64,000 nucleotides of DNA, taken from positions 1-64,000 of the forward strand of contig JANWWA010000010.1 of NCBI GenBank assembly GCA_025056565.1, in the 5' to 3' direction. The position numbers and the translations under genes are program-made. The stretch is from Chloroherpetonaceae bacterium. Lineage in GTDB: Bacteria; Bacteroidota; Chlorobiia; Chlorobiales; Thermochlorobacteraceae. This document shows positions 54,501-64,000 of this stretch, one piece after another (position 1 is the first letter of the stretch; every line of letters begins with the position of its first letter). A model generated the notes under the pieces. The model was not told the origin of the DNA. It saw only the letters and a list, made by a program, of their open reading frames with translations, and did not search any database.

Positions 54501-56021
54501 ATGCTCCGTCAAGTGTATCTCTACTGGCTAAGCGGTCTAGTGCTTCTGATAGTAGGTTTTAGCAGTGGCTGCGGTGGTAAAAAAACTGCAAGCGAGTCAG
54601 TGACCGCTTCACCATCGAAGCCAGCCAGTACTGAACCAGCCAGCATGCCAGTGCACAACGCACCGTCTGGGAATACACTCTTTGTCATTAAAGAAACCGG
54701 CAAGTTCGGCTACATTGATTCCTCTGGGCGAGTGGTTGCCTCTGCAATGTATGAAGAAGCGGGTGAATTCTCAGAAGGCTTTGGGCGCATTCGGCTGGGC
54801 AATCGACACGGCTACCTGGATGCGTCAGGTAACCTTGTAATCAATCCACAATTTGATGCGGCAGGGGAGTTCAAAGAGGGATTTGCCAGAGTACGGCTTG
54901 GTTACAAGTGGGGATATATCAACCGAGAAGGTAAGTATGAAATTAACCCGCAATTTGATGCTGCAGGGAACTTCTCAGAAGGATTAGCCAAGGTGCGCCT
55001 TGCAGGCAAGTGGGGATTTATTGATAAGACAGGCAAACTGGTCATTCACCCCGAGTTTGAAAATGTAGGCGATTTCAAAGGAGGTGTAGCTCGCATCAAG
55101 CAAGCAGGTAAGTGGGGATTTATTGACAAAACAGGTAAGCTGCTTGTGTCACCTGTCTATGACCTTGCCTTTGATTTCTCGGAAGAAATGGCGCTGGTCA
55201 AACAGGGTGGCAAATATGGTTACATTGACCAATCAGGTCAGCTGGCTGTGCCTATTCAGTATGCATCGGCGCAGAGTTTTTCGGAAGGACTTGCAGCCGT
55301 AACCAGTCCCAATCCGCAAGATAAAGGCAAGTCGGGCTACATTGACAAGACAGGGCAAATGGTGATTAAGCCAGACTTCTACCGAGTAGGCCGTTTTTCA
55401 GAAGGCTTAGCGAAAGTCGGGTTCTACCGAAAAGAAGGGTATGTGTATGGATACATTGACAAAGCAGGCAAGTATGCCATCAATCCACAGTTTGATGCGG
55501 CACTGGATTTCTCTGAGGGGCTGGCATGTGTCAAATCGGGTGAAAAATGGGGCGCAATCGATGCCAGTGGTCGATATGTGATTCCGCCTCAGTTTGATAC
55601 CATTTACGCTTTCAAAAATGGTCTGGCGCAAGCAAAGCAGGGCACGATGCTCGGTTACATCAATGCTACAGGCAGCTTTGTGTGGAGTACGGAGCTGCCT
55701 GAAATAGAGACTGTGTTCAGCCGCTTGTTTTACGGCACAATTGAACGACTGGAGATTCAAATGCGCCTTGAACGCAACGGAGAGGAGCTGTTCGGCACAT
55801 ACTTCTACAAGAACATTGGCACTGACATACGCCTAAAAGGCAAAATCGACAAGGAAAACAATATCACACTGGATGAGCTGGATGAGCAAGGTCATGTGGT
55901 AGCCACATTCAAAGGGGCATTTGTTGCACCTGATGTAATTGAAGGCAAATGGACAAAAGGCAATCGAACCTTGCCTTTCGCCTTGCGAGAAATGGTCTTA
56001 GAGACCAGCGAGGAAAATTGA
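54501..56021 (+). CDS. WG-repeat lipoprotein
   Basis: A 506-residue lipoprotein (signal ending GFSSGC, C24, then a Ser/Pro-rich linker). Ten WG-type repeats of about 34 residues each follow, seen as recurring xGYIDxxGxxVxxPxFDxAxxFxEGLA (for example WGFIDKTGKLVI twice in a row, with near-identical DNA 102 bases apart at 55008 and 55110). The C-terminal 100 residues are beta-rich and not repeated. WG-repeat proteins are typical of Bacteroidota and probably form a propeller or a solenoid that binds something outside the cell; function unknown. A promoter is seen upstream. Confidence 0.88.
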   Translation: MLRQVYLYWLSGLVLLIVGFSSGCGGKKTASESVTASPSKPASTEPASMPVHNAPSGNTLFVIKETGKFGYIDSSGRVVASAMYEEAGEFSEGFGRIRLGNRHGYLDASGNLVINPQFDAAGEFKEGFARVRLGYKWGYINREGKYEINPQFDAAGNFSEGLAKVRLAGKWGFIDKTGKLVIHPEFENVGDFKGGVARIKQAGKWGFIDKTGKLLVSPVYDLAFDFSEEMALVKQGGKYGYIDQSGQLAVPIQYASAQSFSEGLAAVTSPNPQDKGKSGYIDKTGQMVIKPDFYRVGRFSEGLAKVGFYRKEGYVYGYIDKAGKYAINPQFDAALDFSEGLACVKSGEKWGAIDASGRYVIPPQFDTIYAFKNGLAQAKQGTMLGYINATGSFVWSTELPEIETVFSRLFYGTIERLEIQMRLERNGEELFGTYFYKNIGTDIRLKGKIDKENNITLDELDEQGHVVATFKGAFVAPDVIEGKWTKGNRTLPFALREMVLETSEEN

Positions 56022-56075: not shown

Positions 56076-59000
56076 TCACTCTGCTCTAACAATGATGGTC
56101 GCTGAAGTTGGCTTTGAACCCTCGACGTCTTCTTCACTGGCTTCTACCACGAAGATGTTTTCGCCTTTGCGGAGCGGCACTTCCAGCGTTCTGCCGTAGC
56201 CTAAGACGCGCTTTCCTTGCAGCCACCTATAAACCACTTTGCGCTCCTCAGGGCGGTTGACAGGCGGCGCACTTACAATTGTTGAAGGGTTAGCAGGATT
56301 CCAAGTTAGCACAATGGGCTTCGGCGATGCGGTGAACTTCAAAGCCTCCCAAACCGTTAGCTCATATGTTTCAACTCTCAAAATCTCGCTGCGCGGTCGC
56401 CAGCCTAACTTGATGTCGTTTTTGCCAAGCACAGTGGCTTGAAATCTCGGCACAATCGTTTCAGCTGAGCCAGTGGTAACAAATCCAATCGCACGCGTCT
56501 CAAACACTTTGGAAAGATCAATTGCCGCACCTTGCACAATGTGCTTAGGTAGTGCAGTTGGAAAAGCGGGTGCAGGCACCACATCAATTTCCTTTACAAT
56601 TGAATCGCGTGAGTTACGCAAATTTCGCTGGTCATCCGCAATCAGCTTGATAAGGTGTCGACCAGCAGAAAGTTGCACAAAATCGCTATCGTATGGCTGA
56701 CCGTCAATAATCCAAGCAAAGCGCAGGGGGTCGCCATCGGCATCTTGCGTGGGCTTGGCTTTCAATGCAAGACGCTCGTTTTCATAAACAGGTAATGGGA
56801 GGCTAATTTCAGGCTTAGGTGCAGAGTTGGCAAATACGGTAAAAGTTTGAGTAGCGGTGCGATTACGCGTCGGGGAGTCATCACTAATGGTGAGTTCAAG
56901 ACGATGCGTGCCAGCTTGTGAGAAAACGTGGGCAACTTTGGGCGTGGTACCAATAAGTTTGCCATCGGCTTTCCACTCATATTTTGTGATGAGGCCATCA
57001 GGGTCAGTAGATTGCGACGCATCTAAAATGAAGCGCTCACCCACTGCAACAGCCTTAGGCACGCTAGCCACTGCAACTGGTGGTGCATTGACACGAATGA
57101 ACTTGGTCTGACTGGCTGACTTGCAAGCCACTTTCGAGTCAGTGGTAATCGTCAGCGTGATAGGGTAGATGCCCGGTTTGCTGAAGCGATGGGTCGCTTT
57201 AACGCCTGTTTTCACAATAGACGCCAGCTCACCTTGTTTTAAGGTATCGCCGTGAATCTGCCACTCGTAAGCGATAATTCTATCGCCTGATGTAGATGGT
57301 GAGGCGTCGAGGCTCACTTCATCATCAGTGGCAACCCATGTTGGCACACTAAACTCAGCAATCGGTCCTGCGACAACACGCACAATAGATGTAGCTTGAC
57401 TGACGTTGCTACACTTGCCACGTTTCGCTGTGCCTTCCGTCCCAACTACGGTCAGCGCCACGCTGTAGACGCCGGGCTTAGTGTAGCTATGCTGCACAAT
57501 TTTACCAAGTGCCGTTTCACCGTCGCCAAAGTCCCAAGCATAGGAGCCAATCGCCCCCACTGGATTGATGCTCCGACTGCCATCGAAGGTGAGCATTGCT
57601 TGCACGCAGACGGTTGTGTCGGTAAAAGAGGGAATAGCGAGTGGCGAACCGCCAATGAAGACAGGAATCGTAGCAATCGTTGGCTCTTGAGCAAAGCCGT
57701 CATCGAGTTTTAAGACCACGCTGTATTGTCCGGGCTTGGTGTAGATGTGAGCAGGGTCGGTTTGCATAGATGTCGTGCCATCGCCAAAGTCCCAAAAAAA
57801 TTTAATTGCGTCGCCATCGGGGTCGTAGCTACGCGAGCCATTGAAGAGAATCGTTTGACCAGTGCAAGCCATCACAAGTGAATCGACAACCGCAACGGGT
57901 GGACGGTTGATGAGCACTTTGATTGTCTCACGCGTTCTGCTATTCGGCAAGTTTTGTCCATCGTCCGCTGTAAGCGTAATGAAGTGCACGCCGTCGCTCG
58001 GCGCATCCCAAAAAAGCACGGCTCCGTTTTGCTTCGTGCCGTCAGGGAAAAGCCACTCAAACGACAGTGCGTGCTTATCAATGTCATAGCTTCTTGATGC
58101 ATCAAGCAAAATGCGCCGAGTGTTAGAGCGAATGATGGTTTCGGTTACAATGATAGGCGCACTGTTGATGAGCAGCTCACCCTGAACCGATTGCTGGCTA
58201 TTGGTAAAGCCTTGACCATCGCTGACCGTAAGCGTGAAGCGCTGCAACCCTGTTTTGCTGAAAGCTTTTTTGACGACAGCACCTTTGATGACCGAGCCAT
58301 CTGCAAATTGCCAAACAATCTGGCGAATCTTCCCATCTTTGTCAAATGAAGTGGAGGCGTCAAATGTAACAGGTTGATTCGGAGCGGCAACTTCCGCAGA
58401 GAGCTGATACTGTGGCACAGGAGCGTAGTTGAGGTGAATTTTCTTCGTAGACACGCTTTGCGCATCTTCAAAGCCAGAGTCGTCTCGCACGACAAGTCGC
58501 AAGTTATGGTCGCCTGACTCTGCGATGACAATCGTAGCGGTGTCGCCCTCAGCGACTTTCTTGTCATCTACAAACCACTCAAACGAGGTGATTTTACCGT
58601 CGGGCGCAAAACTTTTGCGACCATCAAGAAAAATTGGTCGATTCGGCTCAGCGACGCTCGGAGCTTCAAATTGTGCGGTTGGGTAGCGTAAAAGTCGAAA
58701 CGTATGCGTAGTGCGCTGAATGCTGTTAGTTTGCCGTCTGCCATCGTCAACGGTAAGCGTAATAGTGTATTGCCCACTTTTTTGAAAAGTGTGCACAACT
58801 TCAATGCCCTCCGCTTTTGTGCCATCGCCAAAGTCCCAAAAGTATCGGAGCGTAGTGTCGTCGCCATCTGTAGTGCCACGAGCGGAGAAAGTTTGTTTGG
58901 CAGCAGTCGATTTTTCCGCTGCATCAATTTTAGGCACGGGTGGGAAGTTAATGTGAATCTCTTGTGAAAGCGATTGAATGGAGTTTGATACGCCGTGCCC

Positions 59001-60851
59001 ATCATCAGCGGTGAGTGTAACAGTGTAGTCGCCGGGCTGTGCGAACTCAACAGTTACATCGCGTCCCTCAAAAGTCTGACCGTCGGAAATGTCCCACGAA
59101 TACGAGAGAGTGCGGTCATCTGCATCAGTTGAAGCAGCTGCAGAGAGCCGGATTTTGTCGCTGGGTGCAGCTAAGGCAGGTAGCGAAAAGCGTGGCACAG
59201 GTGGTGCATTGACGCGATAACGCACTGTGGTTTGATACGATGAATTAGCTACGCCTGTCCCATCGCTGACGCGTAAAGTCATAGCATAATTGCCATATCG
59301 CTCATGCAAAACAGCCACGCTATCCTTCGTGGGGTCGCTGGCAATGCCTGCACCTAACCACTCGTATCGTAGCGAATCACCGTCGCTATCGCGAGCGGCT
59401 TTAGCTGCAAAGGTAACAGTTTCCTCTGCGGCAAATTCTTTGGGGTAGTCAATTTCCGTGTATGGCTGCGAATTGACTGTCAGGACAAAAGTGTCGGTTG
59501 CTGCTACGCAGGGTGAGTTAGTGGCGTCATCAAGAACGCGCAAGACTACTTGGTAACGATTCGGCTCAGCGCTCGAGAGGCGCAAGCGTGGCTCTTTGCT
59601 ACGAATACCGCCATTGACAAACCACTCGTAGCGAAGTTTGCCACCATCAGGGTCAAAAGAATTTTCTGCGGAGAAAGTGGCGACTTCATTCGGCGCAATG
59701 ATGCGTTTATCACTGCTGATTTTGGCAACAGGTGCTTGGTTAATGCGCACGCTGAAAGGCTTGACCCATCGCTTGGGAAAATAGACCCCTTCTGTAGGAA
59801 TCCAAAGTTCTGCCGTATAAGTGCCGGGCTTGCCAAAGGCGATGCGAGCTGTGTCTCCCACAGCACGCTGAGTGCTGTCAGGCAGTTTTGCAACCCAAGT
59901 AAGAGGTCTAACAAGACGTTTAGGCAGCGTCCTATCGCTTAGGCTGAAGCGCACTTCATCGCAGCGGTCGCCCGGCATTTGCTGAATTGTAACGCTTGGT
60001 GGCGATTGAATCTTGGAAAGGTTCGCTTGCAAGTTCCAGAGAACAGGCTCTTTTGCGCCAACAACCGTGAAGAAGTTGTAGCGACCTGAGCGCGTAACGG
60101 AAAGCCCCCAGTGATTGGGTTCGCCCGAAATGACGGGCTGCCAAAAAGATTGGGCTTCTGAAAGCCGGGCTGAATGGCCGAAATCATCTTTGAGCACAAT
60201 CAGTGCGCCTTCTTCACCTTCCAGCAGAAGTAGGGGCGGAGGTTCACTTTCAAAGTAAGGCTTCAGTTGCACTTCCTGTGTAAGCCCCAGATTGATAGTG
60301 CCGATGGAAAGGTCAATTGCAATTAGTTCCCACTGTGTGCTTTGCTTTGAGGGCTCTGAAAGTTCTGTGGCAGTAAGTTTGAATGCATTCACATCATTGC
60401 CATCAGGAGAAACGCTGGCACGCACAATGTAGCCAAGTGAGTCAGGCTCGACTTGTGCCAAAAGCTCCCAACGGTTACGGTATCGCTCTTCATCTAAGAC
60501 AGAGAGCACAGCGATAGGTTTTGCTTCTGCATTTGCTTGTGCAATGAGACGCTTGCCATTGAGTGTATAGAGGTCAGCAAAGCGAAAGAGTGAAAAGGTT
60601 GTGCGCATGTCAATTTTGCCATAGATAACATCGTTGCTTTTGAGCGAAAGCGAAGCATCAAAAATGCGAATTGCGGCGGCATTTGCGTTGGGTTTAGGCT
60701 TTATCCAGTAGTCAAAGTAGGGGCGGTAGAGACCACTGATGTTGTTGGGAGTTTTTCCAGCGATGTGCAAAGTCAGTTCTTGCGCAAAGCTTACTGATGT
60801 GCTGAGCACCGAGAGCGCCACTATGATGAAAAGAGTTTGCCGCACACTCAT
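56076..60851 (-). CDS. Giant PKD-repeat secreted protein
   Basis: A 1591-residue exported protein (signal LSVLSTSVSFAQ). After an N-terminal region of about 290 residues unlike known domains, about 12 PKD-type Ig-like domains follow, each about 90 residues, with the repeated pattern SxDxDGxxLxYxWDFGDGT...YTVTLTVDDGxG; the domains before residue 600 are less regular. A C-terminal region (about 1450-1591) has GWRPRSEILRVETYELT-like and GKRVLGYGRTLEV segments. There is no T9SS C-terminal domain and no membrane anchor. It overlaps the FecR gene upstream by four bases (ATGA). PKD domains usually mediate adhesion or polysaccharide binding at the surface. Confidence 0.88.
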   Translation of the reverse strand: MSVRQTLFIIVALSVLSTSVSFAQELTLHIAGKTPNNISGLYRPYFDYWIKPKPNANAAAIRIFDASLSLKSNDVIYGKIDMRTTFSLFRFADLYTLNGKRLIAQANAEAKPIAVLSVLDEERYRNRWELLAQVEPDSLGYIVRASVSPDGNDVNAFKLTATELSEPSKQSTQWELIAIDLSIGTINLGLTQEVQLKPYFESEPPPLLLLEGEEGALIVLKDDFGHSARLSEAQSFWQPVISGEPNHWGLSVTRSGRYNFFTVVGAKEPVLWNLQANLSKIQSPPSVTIQQMPGDRCDEVRFSLSDRTLPKRLVRPLTWVAKLPDSTQRAVGDTARIAFGKPGTYTAELWIPTEGVYFPKRWVKPFSVRINQAPVAKISSDKRIIAPNEVATFSAENSFDPDGGKLRYEWFVNGGIRSKEPRLRLSSAEPNRYQVVLRVLDDATNSPCVAATDTFVLTVNSQPYTEIDYPKEFAAEETVTFAAKAARDSDGDSLRYEWLGAGIASDPTKDSVAVLHERYGNYAMTLRVSDGTGVANSSYQTTVRYRVNAPPVPRFSLPALAAPSDKIRLSAAASTDADDRTLSYSWDISDGQTFEGRDVTVEFAQPGDYTVTLTADDGHGVSNSIQSLSQEIHINFPPVPKIDAAEKSTAAKQTFSARGTTDGDDTTLRYFWDFGDGTKAEGIEVVHTFQKSGQYTITLTVDDGRRQTNSIQRTTHTFRLLRYPTAQFEAPSVAEPNRPIFLDGRKSFAPDGKITSFEWFVDDKKVAEGDTATIVIAESGDHNLRLVVRDDSGFEDAQSVSTKKIHLNYAPVPQYQLSAEVAAPNQPVTFDASTSFDKDGKIRQIVWQFADGSVIKGAVVKKAFSKTGLQRFTLTVSDGQGFTNSQQSVQGELLINSAPIIVTETIIRSNTRRILLDASRSYDIDKHALSFEWLFPDGTKQNGAVLFWDAPSDGVHFITLTADDGQNLPNSRTRETIKVLINRPPVAVVDSLVMACTGQTILFNGSRSYDPDGDAIKFFWDFGDGTTSMQTDPAHIYTKPGQYSVVLKLDDGFAQEPTIATIPVFIGGSPLAIPSFTDTTVCVQAMLTFDGSRSINPVGAIGSYAWDFGDGETALGKIVQHSYTKPGVYSVALTVVGTEGTAKRGKCSNVSQATSIVRVVAGPIAEFSVPTWVATDDEVSLDASPSTSGDRIIAYEWQIHGDTLKQGELASIVKTGVKATHRFSKPGIYPITLTITTDSKVACKSASQTKFIRVNAPPVAVASVPKAVAVGERFILDASQSTDPDGLITKYEWKADGKLIGTTPKVAHVFSQAGTHRLELTISDDSPTRNRTATQTFTVFANSAPKPEISLPLPVYENERLALKAKPTQDADGDPLRFAWIIDGQPYDSDFVQLSAGRHLIKLIADDQRNLRNSRDSIVKEIDVVPAPAFPTALPKHIVQGAAIDLSKVFETRAIGFVTTGSAETIVPRFQATVLGKNDIKLGWRPRSEILRVETYELTVWEALKFTASPKPIVLTWNPANPSTIVSAPPVNRPEERKVVYRWLQGKRVLGYGRTLEVPLRKGENIFVVEASEEDVEGSKPTSATIIVRAE

Positions 60852-62650
60852 TTGACGAAGTAAGTTCGAATGATGATGGGTTCTTTGGAGTCAGGTGATT
60901 CAAATGACACAGTTAGGGTTTGGTTTGGAGTAGGCTCAACTGAAATAGCCCAATTGCCTTTTGAGTCGGCGATGGCTGAGTAGATTTTCCCGCTGTGCGT
61001 AAGATGCAGCGTTAAGTTTGGATAAGCCAAGCCACGCACCTGAATCGGCAAGCCTTTGGAGAGCAAAGTGTCAGTATTCACGATGCACGACCACGAAAGT
61101 TCTCGCAGCTGTTCTATGCGAATTCGCTTTATTCTGAGAACGAGATTGCGGCGATTTTGTGCAGCATCGAGCGCAGAAAGTTGCACTAATTTTTCAGCCA
61201 GAGTGTCTAACTGAACTGTGAATTCAAATGTGCCGTTCGGCATCGTGGTGAGCAGTTCGCCATCTTTGAGTAGTGTACTATTCGGTTCGGTTTCACCGCG
61301 AAGTGTGAGGCGATTGAGCGTTGTGTAGCGCAGCAATGTATCACCCAGTTGAGTCGGAAAATCCTGAACGAAGAGGAAAGGAGGCTCGGTATCAGGGCTG
61401 CGCAAAATGCGGTAAGTGGGACTATCAGCGCCGCGCAAGCCCAGTCGGTCAATTGCTTGAAGGCGCACAAAGTGCGTCTCGTGGGGCAAGTTTTTGAGCT
61501 GAAGCGACAGCGCAGTTGTGAAATAGGCCTTCACATGTCGGCTAAAATCGCTCTCGGGACTCACCTCAATGTGATACTTTGCGGCGCTTGGCACGGGATT
61601 CCATTGAAGCGTAAGTTCATTACGAAAAATGACAGTGTCTAGGCCATTCCATCTTAGACGTGGCGCAGGCAGAAGTTCCACAGGGGGAAGTGGCTCTTTG
61701 CCTTGAAGCACCACAGTGCCTTGATTTTTTTGGAGTGTAACGAGCATCTTGCCGGCCTGCACTTGCATAGTGCCATCGTAGTTTGCAATGCGTGCGATGC
61801 GTACAATGCGTGCATCACTGACGCTAGCCCAAAATTTGCCTGAATTGACAATCGCTTCGGAGCTGCCTGCATTGAGCTTGAACATGCCTGCTTCTTGGGC
61901 TTGCGCCGAAAGCTGAGAAAGCAAAGTGCCTTTAACCAGCACCACATCTGCGCGCAGCGTTTTGTCTAATCGGTCAATGCGAGCAGTGCGCACAATTGCA
62001 GTGGTGTTTTCACTCACGAAAAGGGTGCTGCCATCAACAAAGGCAAGCAAGGCAGAGCTTTGTGCAGCAGTGCGAATGCCATCAGATTCAGCCAAAAGAT
62101 CGCCTTCCGAAGCTGGTTGCCACACTCCCAGCAAGCCTTTGCGCTTGTCTACGGTGCCCGCTTTCTTTTTAAGTTTGGCTTCAATCGCTTCGGTGCGGCG
62201 CGCTTCCACCGTTGAAGAAAGCTCTGGCAAGAGCGAAAGGAATTTCTCCCCTGCAGAGAGAGCTGGTTCAAGCTTGCCATCAGAGACAGCTTTGTCGTGT
62301 GCCTGAAGCGCTGCGCTTGCCGCAGAGAACTCCGCTTCTGCTAAAACGGGTGCGCCGCGCTTGATAAGTTGGCTGAGCGTTTGGCGTTCCAGATTCACTT
62401 TTCGGCGTAGCTCTGCAAAGGGCTTGAGCGCTTTCTGTGCAGAGGCAGGAAGGCGAAATTCATTGCGAATCAAGTATCGCTCCGATAACCCTACGACCAG
62501 TGGCCACGCTGCAGAATCTCCAGCCACCTTTTGCGAGACTTGCATAAGGTCACTGGCTTTGAAGACAAAGCCACTCTCGCGTGGTTGGGCACCTAGCCAT
62601 ACCGCAAGAAACACAAATGCAAGGGTGCTACAAAGATGCCGTAACATCAT
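60848..62650 (-). CDS. Secreted FecR-domain protein with Fn3/Ig-like domains
   Basis: A 600-residue exported protein (signal FLAVWLGAQ). It has an alpha-helical N-terminal part (about 40-160), then a FecR domain (about 175-300, with GDLLAESDGIRTAAQSSALL and VLVKGTLLSQLS), a fibronectin-III-like domain (about 335-410, LTLQWNPVPSAAKYHIEV), and two Ig-like bacterial domains ending with NWAISVEP and TYFVK. Unlike iron regulator FecR there is no sigma factor or membrane helix nearby. Its first ATG overlaps the kinase stop by four bases, and its stop overlaps the PKD gene start by four bases. FecR-PKD pairs of this kind are probable envelope sensor or matrix proteins. Confidence 0.85.
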   Translation of the reverse strand: MMLRHLCSTLAFVFLAVWLGAQPRESGFVFKASDLMQVSQKVAGDSAAWPLVVGLSERYLIRNEFRLPASAQKALKPFAELRRKVNLERQTLSQLIKRGAPVLAEAEFSAASAALQAHDKAVSDGKLEPALSAGEKFLSLLPELSSTVEARRTEAIEAKLKKKAGTVDKRKGLLGVWQPASEGDLLAESDGIRTAAQSSALLAFVDGSTLFVSENTTAIVRTARIDRLDKTLRADVVLVKGTLLSQLSAQAQEAGMFKLNAGSSEAIVNSGKFWASVSDARIVRIARIANYDGTMQVQAGKMLVTLQKNQGTVVLQGKEPLPPVELLPAPRLRWNGLDTVIFRNELTLQWNPVPSAAKYHIEVSPESDFSRHVKAYFTTALSLQLKNLPHETHFVRLQAIDRLGLRGADSPTYRILRSPDTEPPFLFVQDFPTQLGDTLLRYTTLNRLTLRGETEPNSTLLKDGELLTTMPNGTFEFTVQLDTLAEKLVQLSALDAAQNRRNLVLRIKRIRIEQLRELSWSCIVNTDTLLSKGLPIQVRGLAYPNLTLHLTHSGKIYSAIADSKGNWAISVEPTPNQTLTVSFESPDSKEPIIIRTYFVK

Positions 62651-64000
62651 TTGTGCTCTGCAGCAAATTCAATAGGTTCAGCGGCTTTAGTGGCTTCGAC
62701 GGGCAAGGTGATGGTAAAGCGAGAACCGATTTGTGCGTTTGACTCCAGCGAAATTGTGCCGCCGTGTCGTGAGACAATTTCTTTCACATATGCTAAACCC
62801 AACCCTGTTCCAATTTCCTTTAGGTGCTTGTCGCTCTGCACGCGATAAAATTTTGTGAAAAGCTTGGCTTGCGCTTCAGGTGGAATGCCGTAGCCGTAGT
62901 CAGTAATAGAGAAAACAACGCTCTTTGGTGTAGCACGCAGTTCAAGTTCAATTGTGCGGTTTGGGTCGCCGTATTTAATGGCGTTGGTCATCAGGTTCTG
63001 AATCGCTTCAGCAATCAGCTCTTCAGATGCGTAGATAGTGGGAATATCGTCATCGCACTTGAAGGCAAATGAAACTGATTTCTCTTCTGCCTGCGGACGC
63101 AAAAGGTCAATAAGCATTCGCACAATATCGGGTAAATAGACAGGCACGCGCACGATTTTTTGTCGCCCTGACTCCAAGCGCATCACATCAAGAAAGCGAT
63201 TGACCAGCTTTAGGAGCTTGTGGCCGCTTTGATGAATCAGCGTGATAAATTGCTGCTTAGACTGCTCATCAAACCCTGAAGGTTGCATTAGAAGGTCGGA
63301 AAAGCCAATCACGCTATTGAGAGGTGAGCGTAGCTCGTGCACCACGATGTTGAGTGTTTCTTCTTTGATTTTTTCCAGCTCGCGCTCTTGAGTGAGGTCG
63401 TGCAAGATAATAAATGAGCCTAACAAGATTTTTTCCTGCGAGTAGAGTGCAACCGCTTGCGCGCGATAGACTTCGGTTGTCTCGCCTAAAGTGATGCTTA
63501 TCTCGCGTTGGTCTCGCACAGCTTCAAAGTGAGCGGCGTGCTCGGTCTGCGTGCCATGTTTGACCACCGTGATAGCAGAGTGCTCAAAGAATGCGGTGCG
63601 TGTGGGTGGCTCTTGAAATCCTAAGCGCTGGCAAAGCTCAGCAAACCGTGCATTTTGAAACGTAAAGCGGTCGTCGCTGCCTGCAATGCCAATCAAGTCT
63701 TCGCTGTAGGTCATTAGCAGCTTGGTTTTCCACTCTTCGAGAATAATCTTCTCGACGTTCATTTTTTGGTATCGGTCGAGCGTTTTGCGCATTGCCTCAA
63801 TCGTTTGCGAGAGTGTGTGTAGCTCGGGCAGCGCAAACAGTTCAATCTTATGAGAGAAATCCAGTGCCTGCATAGGTCTGACGGCTTCCACAAGCTGCTG
63901 AACAGGCTTTGTAACTTGTGCAGAGGCGAGCCAACCTGCAATAAACATCACAGCGCAGACCACTGCAACAAAGACCAGTGAAAACCACATTAGCTGCGCA
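62647..64000 (-). CDS. HAMP-PAS histidine kinase (partial, 5' end beyond window)
   Basis: The frame is open to the window edge, so the N-terminus (sensor region and first helix) is missing; the visible part is about 450 residues. A membrane helix is followed by HAMP (about 25-75 from the ATG at 63990), a coiled coil, a PAS-like region (about 85-200), HisKA with the phospho-acceptor His (codon 63337-63339) in NIVVHELRSPLNSV, and the ATPase domain with QNLMTNAIKYGD, DYGYGIP and GTGLGLAYVKEIV. All catalytic residues are present. Its stop overlaps the FecR-gene start, making a kinase-FecR-PKD operon. The cognate regulator is not in the window. Confidence 0.92.
   Translation of the reverse strand, partial: AQLMWFSLVFVAVVCAVMFIAGWLASAQVTKPVQQLVEAVRPMQALDFSHKIELFALPELHTLSQTIEAMRKTLDRYQKMNVEKIILEEWKTKLLMTYSEDLIGIAGSDDRFTFQNARFAELCQRLGFQEPPTRTAFFEHSAITVVKHGTQTEHAAHFEAVRDQREISITLGETTEVYRAQAVALYSQEKILLGSFIILHDLTQERELEKIKEETLNIVVHELRSPLNSVIGFSDLLMQPSGFDEQSKQQFITLIHQSGHKLLKLVNRFLDVMRLESGRQKIVRVPVYLPDIVRMLIDLLRPQAEEKSVSFAFKCDDDIPTIYASEELIAEAIQNLMTNAIKYGDPNRTIELELRATPKSVVFSITDYGYGIPPEAQAKLFTKFYRVQSDKHLKEIGTGLGLAYVKEIVSRHGGTISLESNAQIGSRFTITLPVEATKAAEPIEFAAEHK

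Follow-up and report, generated by a model that had tools for sequence, protein, structure and literature searches.

A conserved histidine kinase, FecR and PKD gene unit that could encode an envelope receptor with an exchangeable output

Introduction

In this study, we have explored three adjacent genes in a 64,000-base stretch of DNA from a Chloroherpetonaceae bacterium (hereafter the window, which is the first 64,000 bases of the 117,615-base contig JANWWA010000010.1 in a genome of 2.92 Mb). Lying on the minus strand in the order HK > FecR > PKD, they encode a sensor histidine kinase (HK), a secreted FecR-domain protein and a long protein with PKD-type domains. Our comparisons demonstrate that the HK, FecR and PKD genes form a conserved unit and that, in distant relatives, the extracytoplasmic FecR-PKD pair is constant while the enzyme inside is exchangeable. 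Based on these results we lean, with some reserve, towards the view that the operon encodes one envelope receptor, with a periplasmic, probably wall-anchored input module and an exchangeable output.

The FecR protein of the FecI/FecR/FecA system carries the PF04773 domain, a cytoplasmic anti-Sigma part and a membrane helix, and its Sigma factor gene is immediately adjacent. To our knowledge, there is no consensus on what FecR domains do when they are not part of iron regulation. PKD proteins, for their part, are mostly regarded as adhesins or enzyme appendages, and a PKD rod whose length hardly varies and whose cysteines are fixed is unexpected among them. The persistence of the trio over nine families, together with the replacement of its output in distant relatives, points to FecR-PKD as a signal input, and the trio offers a well-delimited system open to study in cultivated bacteria.

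Results

Searching 394 genomes of the phylum with a profile, we found a FecR match in 47 of them, and we read the DNA around the 41 full-length matches (score above 450). Contigs shared by two entries (L038, L039 and L040, which are the same as L072, L071 and L073) were counted once, and L034-L037, which repeat G006, G001, G007 and G004, were not counted again. In 41 of 41 loci, spread over nine families, an HK gene lies directly upstream and a PKD gene directly downstream on the same strand; a full-length locus recognised later, in G596, brings this to 42 of 42. A first-pass annotation of the window had proposed a surface-sensing assembly and named conservation of gene order in relatives as its test, and that prediction is borne out. 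Closer to the window, seven of 61 relatives (G000, G001, G004, G005, G006, G007 and G009; the source genome and G001 belong to the same genus) have a close FecR relative, in every case with HK before it and PKD after it, and none was found in 49 genomes of family f4 (probably Chlorobiaceae) or in G002, G003, G008, G010 and G012. In the class of the distant genome G111 the distribution is patchy, since only 9 of 197 genomes gave a match.

The same arrangement could in principle reflect common descent and an absence of rearrangement, without any shared function. Consistent with this, 22 of the 41 loci come from family f18, in which the flanking genes are conserved as well. Furthermore, the divergences of the three genes correlate closely over the 595 pairs of 35 loci (r 0.97 for HK-FecR, 0.96 for FecR-PKD and 0.91 for HK-PKD; L025, L026, L071, L077, L081 and L085, the last with its HK split into two frames of 432 and 270 amino acids, were left out), as vertical descent alone would also predict. 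However, flanking genes differ between families, and the nine families, averaging 34-40% identity to the window proteins, keep the trio despite their differing flanks; in a second phylum, too, FecR and PKD are grouped with a membrane protein, though in another order (L145, L147). We consider descent without shared function very improbable.

In the window, the HK stop codon TGA and the FecR start overlap as ATGA (62647-62650, minus strand), and the FecR stop and PKD start do so again at 60848-60851 (minus strand), as the first reading of this DNA had stated. The second FecR codon is also ATG, and its use would leave a 1-base HK/FecR overlap. The fixed ratio of products that had been read into these overlaps is not supported, and the four-base overlap is not conserved throughout: it is kept between FecR and PKD in six of ten loci examined and between HK and FecR, as ATGA, in three of ten, with gaps or overlaps of other sizes elsewhere. 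A promoter scan was uninformative: it gave 5 sites resembling promoters, where shuffled sequences led us to expect 8.2.

The main reason for reading FecR and PKD as the input is that this pair stays while the output enzyme is exchanged. A first look by profile at six more distant loci (L105-L110) showed an HK-like protein upstream in five and a PKD protein downstream in four. The domains themselves gave a different picture. In G111 (L107), FecR and PKD come after a first gene whose product is a HAMP-cyclase (Guanylate_cyc). In G304 (L152 9646-14908; L109 2566-19001), a response regulator (RR)/SpoIIE gene, a cyclase, FecR, PKD, HK, FecR and PKD stand in one row, so that a cyclase > FecR > PKD set directly precedes an HK > FecR > PKD set. 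The second phylum is that of L041, Candidatus Neomarinimicrobiota, where 100 genomes contained a FecR relative (E 1e-40) in five and a PKD-type match (1e-20) in eight, only one of the latter over the whole N-terminal profile. Here the order FecR, membrane protein, PKD is found in L145, whose membrane protein is a HAMP-SpoIIE protein by Pfam, and in L147, whose membrane protein has the same length and matches the profile; L146 has FecR with the N-terminal part of such a membrane protein, and L148 a HAMP-SpoIIE protein with PKD. The cyclase and SpoIIE proteins share a homologous sensor-HAMP part with the distant HKs, the profile matches lying within positions 1-367 of 644 (E 6e-78 to 2e-41 for complete proteins).

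These exchanges bear on a serious, if unlikely, competitor: that the kinase is an ordinary receptor controlling a surface structure made of FecR and PKD, both proteins being its target rather than its input, with the operon serving autoregulation. A PKD protein that occurs alone (L121-L125) is what would be expected of a structural product with a role of its own. The PKD protein is also more alike between loci than the HK in 81% of the 595 pairs (and than the FecR protein in 89%, whereas it surpasses the kinase domain taken by itself in just 9%). In addition, a gene for a C25 peptidase or a type IX secretion substrate lies upstream of the trio in L023 and L024, and a PMT-type glycosyltransferase gene lies just downstream of pkd in L023 (Pfam), with a similar start in L024. 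On the other hand, the FecR and PKD partners persist where a cyclase or SpoIIE phosphatase has taken over the output, as would be expected of an input more than of a transcriptional target, and LysM/FecR or FecR proteins accompany HKs and cyclases in other phyla too (PMC5192318, PMC9239204). The upstream genes themselves encode a C25-type peptidase with a Por_Secre_tail domain (L023 10793-15172) and a Cleaved_Adhesin protein with the same tail (L024 1579-5754).

The FecR-domain protein (60848..62650, minus strand, from the open reading frame and Pfam) has 600 amino acids. From its N-terminus it shows a signal-peptide-like start, a LysM-like element (residues 28-67, 62450..62569, predicted as beta-alpha-alpha-beta in the model), a helical stretch, the FecR domain PF04773 (residues 192-281, 61808..62077, Pfam), a fibronectin-III (Fn3)-like domain identified by structure comparison (residues 324-417, 61400..61681) and two further beta-sandwich domains of immunoglobulin (Ig)-like type (residues 418-600, 60851..61399, predicted structure and structure comparison). 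The PF04773 match scored 23.8 bits against a cut-off of 24 in one scan and 27.4, over the cut-off, in another, and the domain is present in 47 of 47 relatives (E 0.01 or better); Pfam LysM was recognised in 5 of 47. Single-domain matches of the Fn3-like part have Z about 9-11, a root-mean-square deviation of 2-2.8 and 79-96 aligned residues; matches for this model and for that of the PKD N-terminus were taken from Foldseek lists. With a mean predicted local distance difference test score (pLDDT) of 70, and of at most 54 per block in the FecR domain, the model was used solely to define the beta domains towards the C-terminus and to see how the N-terminal elements are arranged. None of 48 FecR sequences has a lipobox. 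The LysM-like fold in the model suggests that the protein is probably anchored to peptidoglycan or the cell wall.

This architecture bears on another possibility, that the operon is a Sigma factor switch in which the protein would be an anti-Sigma factor of the FecR type or the periplasmic half of one. Such an assignment has the PF04773 match in common with FecI/FecR/FecA. Yet the start is signal-peptide-like, and a LysM-like N-terminus takes the place of the cytoplasmic anti-Sigma domain; a hydropathy scan found no internal membrane-helix-like segment in 48 of 48 sequences, so that the architecture already contradicts the idea. Furthermore, the FecR neighbours are HK and PKD in 41 of 41 loci with no Sigma factor adjacent, more remote Sigma factors not having been searched for. 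Thus, unlike the FecR of FecI/FecR/FecA, the window protein has neither a cytoplasmic anti-Sigma part, nor a membrane helix, nor an immediately adjacent Sigma gene. As a secreted protein with a LysM-like N-terminus and no internal membrane helix, it does not look like an anti-Sigma factor by its sequence, and we find the Sigma switch scarcely credible. The only other FecR-domain protein found in the genome (L130 6688-7392, on contig 5 of G000) has 234 amino acids and a PF04773 match above the cut-off; no kinase was recognised by eye beside it in the list of open reading frames.

The sensor HK, which had been treated as complete, is cut by the window edge: it occupies 62647..64000 (minus strand; Pfam HisKA, HATPase_c and a weak HAMP) and continues to a GTG start at contig base 64806, the sensor segment and start lying at contig bases 64001-64806. 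Of its 719 amino acids, the C-terminal 450 fall inside the window. These include a HAMP-like segment (residues 296-343, 63778..63921, Pfam E 0.0018, below the cut-off of that family), the HisKA phospho-acceptor domain with the H-box HELRSP (residues 481-547, 63166..63366, Pfam) and the HATPase_c catalytic domain (residues 595-704, 62695..63024, Pfam). HisKA and HATPase_c were matched in 40 of 40 HKs; among 41 HK sequences scoring above 400, the H-box is intact in 39 and the G1 and G2 motifs in all. Most members have two membrane helices with a sensor segment between them, and with its H-box, G boxes and membrane helices the protein has the features of a two-component sensor HK. The sensor segment is the more variable part, at about 30% mean pairwise identity against 49% in the kinase part. 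PAS-like signals occur in a minority of the HKs (PAS_4 in 15 of 40), CHASE2 has no Pfam match listed for the 40, and dCache_1 (Pfam) is weak in 3 of 40 of the clade of the window, present in four of five distant HKs and absent from the window HK. The order HAMP, PAS-like, HisKA, HATPase is also that of WalK/PnpS-type kinases (NCBIfam NF033092, NF046044); the window HK belongs to neither group, as it falls short of both cut-offs (725 bits for WalK, where it scores 190.6, and 400 bits for PnpS, where it scores 216.5). In G001, a 168-amino-acid piece matching the HK N-terminus lies upstream of the intact HK (L026 12816-13322) and resembles a partial duplication.

The PKD protein (56076..60851, minus strand, open reading frame and Pfam) has the 1591 residues originally reported. 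It begins with one or more beta-rich domains that belong to no named family found (residues 24-281, 60009..60782, model), followed by an Ig-like domain with the invariant Cys297 (residues 282-372, 59736..60008, alignment and model), an array of 12 PKD-type domains (residues 374-1427, 56571..59732, Pfam and alignment) that holds the invariant Cys448, Cys996, Cys1082, Cys1147 and Cys1243, and a C-terminal part without a sorting domain by Pfam (residues 1428-1591, 56079..56570). The model of residues 22-465 has a mean pLDDT of 91, and its structure matches fall mainly on the Ig-like and PKD1 domains. Residues 24-281 have no PDB sequence match, and among the matches listed none was convincing for the structure of residues 22-281, which does not by itself make this a new fold.

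This protein is strikingly constant. In 40 sequences (entries cut by contig ends, those at or below 700 bits and L026, which has a run of unknown bases, were excluded), all 12 PKD segments are occupied in 35, the other five, all of genus g46, lacking PKD2-3 wholly or in part. The mature length is 1510-1596 residues in 38 and 1374-1387 in two. All 40 sequences share the six cysteines found in the window protein, and cysteine exceeds 30% in no further column. Because length, domain count and cysteines are near-constant, we read the protein as part of a machine, which argues against a variable adhesin or matrix protein. A link with type IX secretion was considered on account of SprA (TIGR04189), found in 12 of 61 relatives including all seven trio carriers; five SprA carriers have no trio (G002, G003, G008, G010 and G012) and 49 negatives come from the one family f4, so the co-occurrence gives no independent support.

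Discussion

Our results suggest a receptor that would work as follows. A kinase with two membrane helices would hold its sensor segment outside and its HAMP, PAS-like, HisKA and ATPase parts inside, and it could take its signal from an extracytoplasmic complex of the LysM-like/FecR/Fn3 protein and the PKD rod. The former would probably be bound to peptidoglycan, and its partner, with 12 PKD domains behind a conserved head at the N-terminus, would form a long rod. Together, rod and wall-bound protein would probably inform the sensor segment about a state of the envelope, be it attachment, load or spacing, and the kinase could then pass the signal by phosphotransfer to an RR encoded elsewhere. 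This proposal is based on gene order, domains, signal-peptide-like N-terminal helices, intact kinase motifs, conservation and the exchange of outputs; from there to a wall-anchored sensor of tension or spacing is a step that we infer. The earlier suggestion that the secreted proteins report to the kinase is favoured by the output swap, while its label of "matrix proteins" is not supported, given the near-constant length and domain count of the PKD protein, in which Pfam also finds no Por_Secre_tail or CHU_C sorting domain even though the genome has SprA.

A number of observations weigh against a single receptor of this kind. PKD genes also stand alone at L121-L125, L128 and L129 (the copies at L122-L125 being second copies in the four f5 genomes that have the trio), and PKD-like genes lie without an adjacent HK or FecR in G229 and G292. 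G131 (L121) has PKD without HK and FecR at the locus, and its relative G596 (L150), with the same flanking genes, has all three. Two contigs of G111 carry incomplete sets, HK > PKD without FecR on C81 (L126) and HK > FecR without PKD on C79 (L105). Given such PKD genes without HK and FecR, the protein either has some independent use or works for a receptor whose gene lies at another place. The trio is also missing from the same-family genomes G002 and G003, which are 96-100% complete, and vertical descent explains part of the linkage. A comparison of the sensor segments did not establish homology between the clade of the window and the distant clade, the match having a probability of 1.4% for the periplasmic part alone, against 95.5% when HAMP is included. 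The window FecR protein itself has no Pfam LysM match, and no more than 32 of 48 FecR and 32 of 46 PKD sequences, whose start codons are uncertain, showed a hydrophobic stretch at the N-terminus. Finally, no RR is regularly adjacent: BLAST clusters place one in 2 of 41 loci (L026, L073), outside the trio, and the kinase may be an orphan without an RR in its operon.

The association of FecR with a kinase, at first presented as a novelty, has precedents. In Burkholderia contaminans, the BiofilmReg operon has the order RR > LysM-FecR > CHASE2 HK > DUF4136; interruption of its first gene abolished biofilm formation, and its LysM/FecR protein has been proposed to sit on peptidoglycan and aid sensing, in a report that places LysM/FecR beside HK in Burkholderiales (PMC5192318). 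Our trio likewise lies on one strand and combines a sensor HK with a secreted FecR protein that has a LysM-like N-terminus; unlike BiofilmReg as described there, it has no regular RR and no CHASE2 match, and its third part is the 12-PKD protein. In Campylobacterota, a FecR-domain protein, a phosphodiesterase and a TPR protein are encoded in clusters with CHASE2 adenylate cyclases (PMC9239204). This is again a FecR-domain envelope protein beside a membrane signalling enzyme, matching the cyclase variant of L107 and L152, but with a CHASE2 input and, in the portion of that paper seen, no PKD protein described. Ordinary fec genes with PKD-domain proteins beside FecA/FecIR are listed in PMC6461280. 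LysM/FecR with HK and FecR with cyclases are therefore already known, while the PKD partner and the exchange of kinase, cyclase and phosphatase were found nowhere in our searches, whose coverage left out most subscription papers, and are apparently new.

A broader and more tentative extension, which we regard as possible rather than probable, is that of widespread modular envelope receptors in at least two phyla. A wall-anchored LysM-FecR protein and a PKD rod of fixed length would together make up their common periplasmic input, which might act as a ruler or tension gauge between the wall and outer layers and would feed interchangeable cytoplasmic outputs (HK, nucleotide cyclase or PP2C-type phosphatase), at times with two in tandem in one genome.

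Neighbouring genes and other observations

The gene beyond base 64000 is thus first the HK itself, up to 64806, and then, 122 bp upstream and on the same strand, a gene for a Na/sulfate-symporter family transporter (PF00939), preceded in turn by a TPR protein gene on that strand. Downstream of the trio and convergent to the PKD gene, 54501-56021 encodes a secreted-looking protein with nine WG repeats. Further along in the window, a deoxyhypusine-synthase-family gene (PF01916; 52136-53182), here in a bacterium, comes directly after a gene for the small signal recognition particle RNA.

Other FecR arrangements were seen in relatives. Both G003 (L030 8988-13765) and G002 (L031 5967-10820), which are without the trio, carry another HK-FecR pair, made up of an HK with HAMP (dCache_1 in L030, PAS signals) and an overlapping OmpA-FecR protein, together with one or more response-regulator-like genes, named by sight; against the trio profiles these match weakly (237-261 bits for HK, 37-52 bits for FecR). 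G260 (L151 5277-10687) has one more pairing of FecR with a kinase, in which an OmpA-FecR protein precedes a hybrid kinase that contains dCache, HAMP, Hpt and two receiver domains. Near FecR genes of the second phylum, we noted STAS, HATPase_c_2 and metallo-beta-lactamase-fold genes (L144 2758-4512, Pfam; L146 5171-6920), which we take to resemble partner-switching systems with SpoIIE phosphatases.

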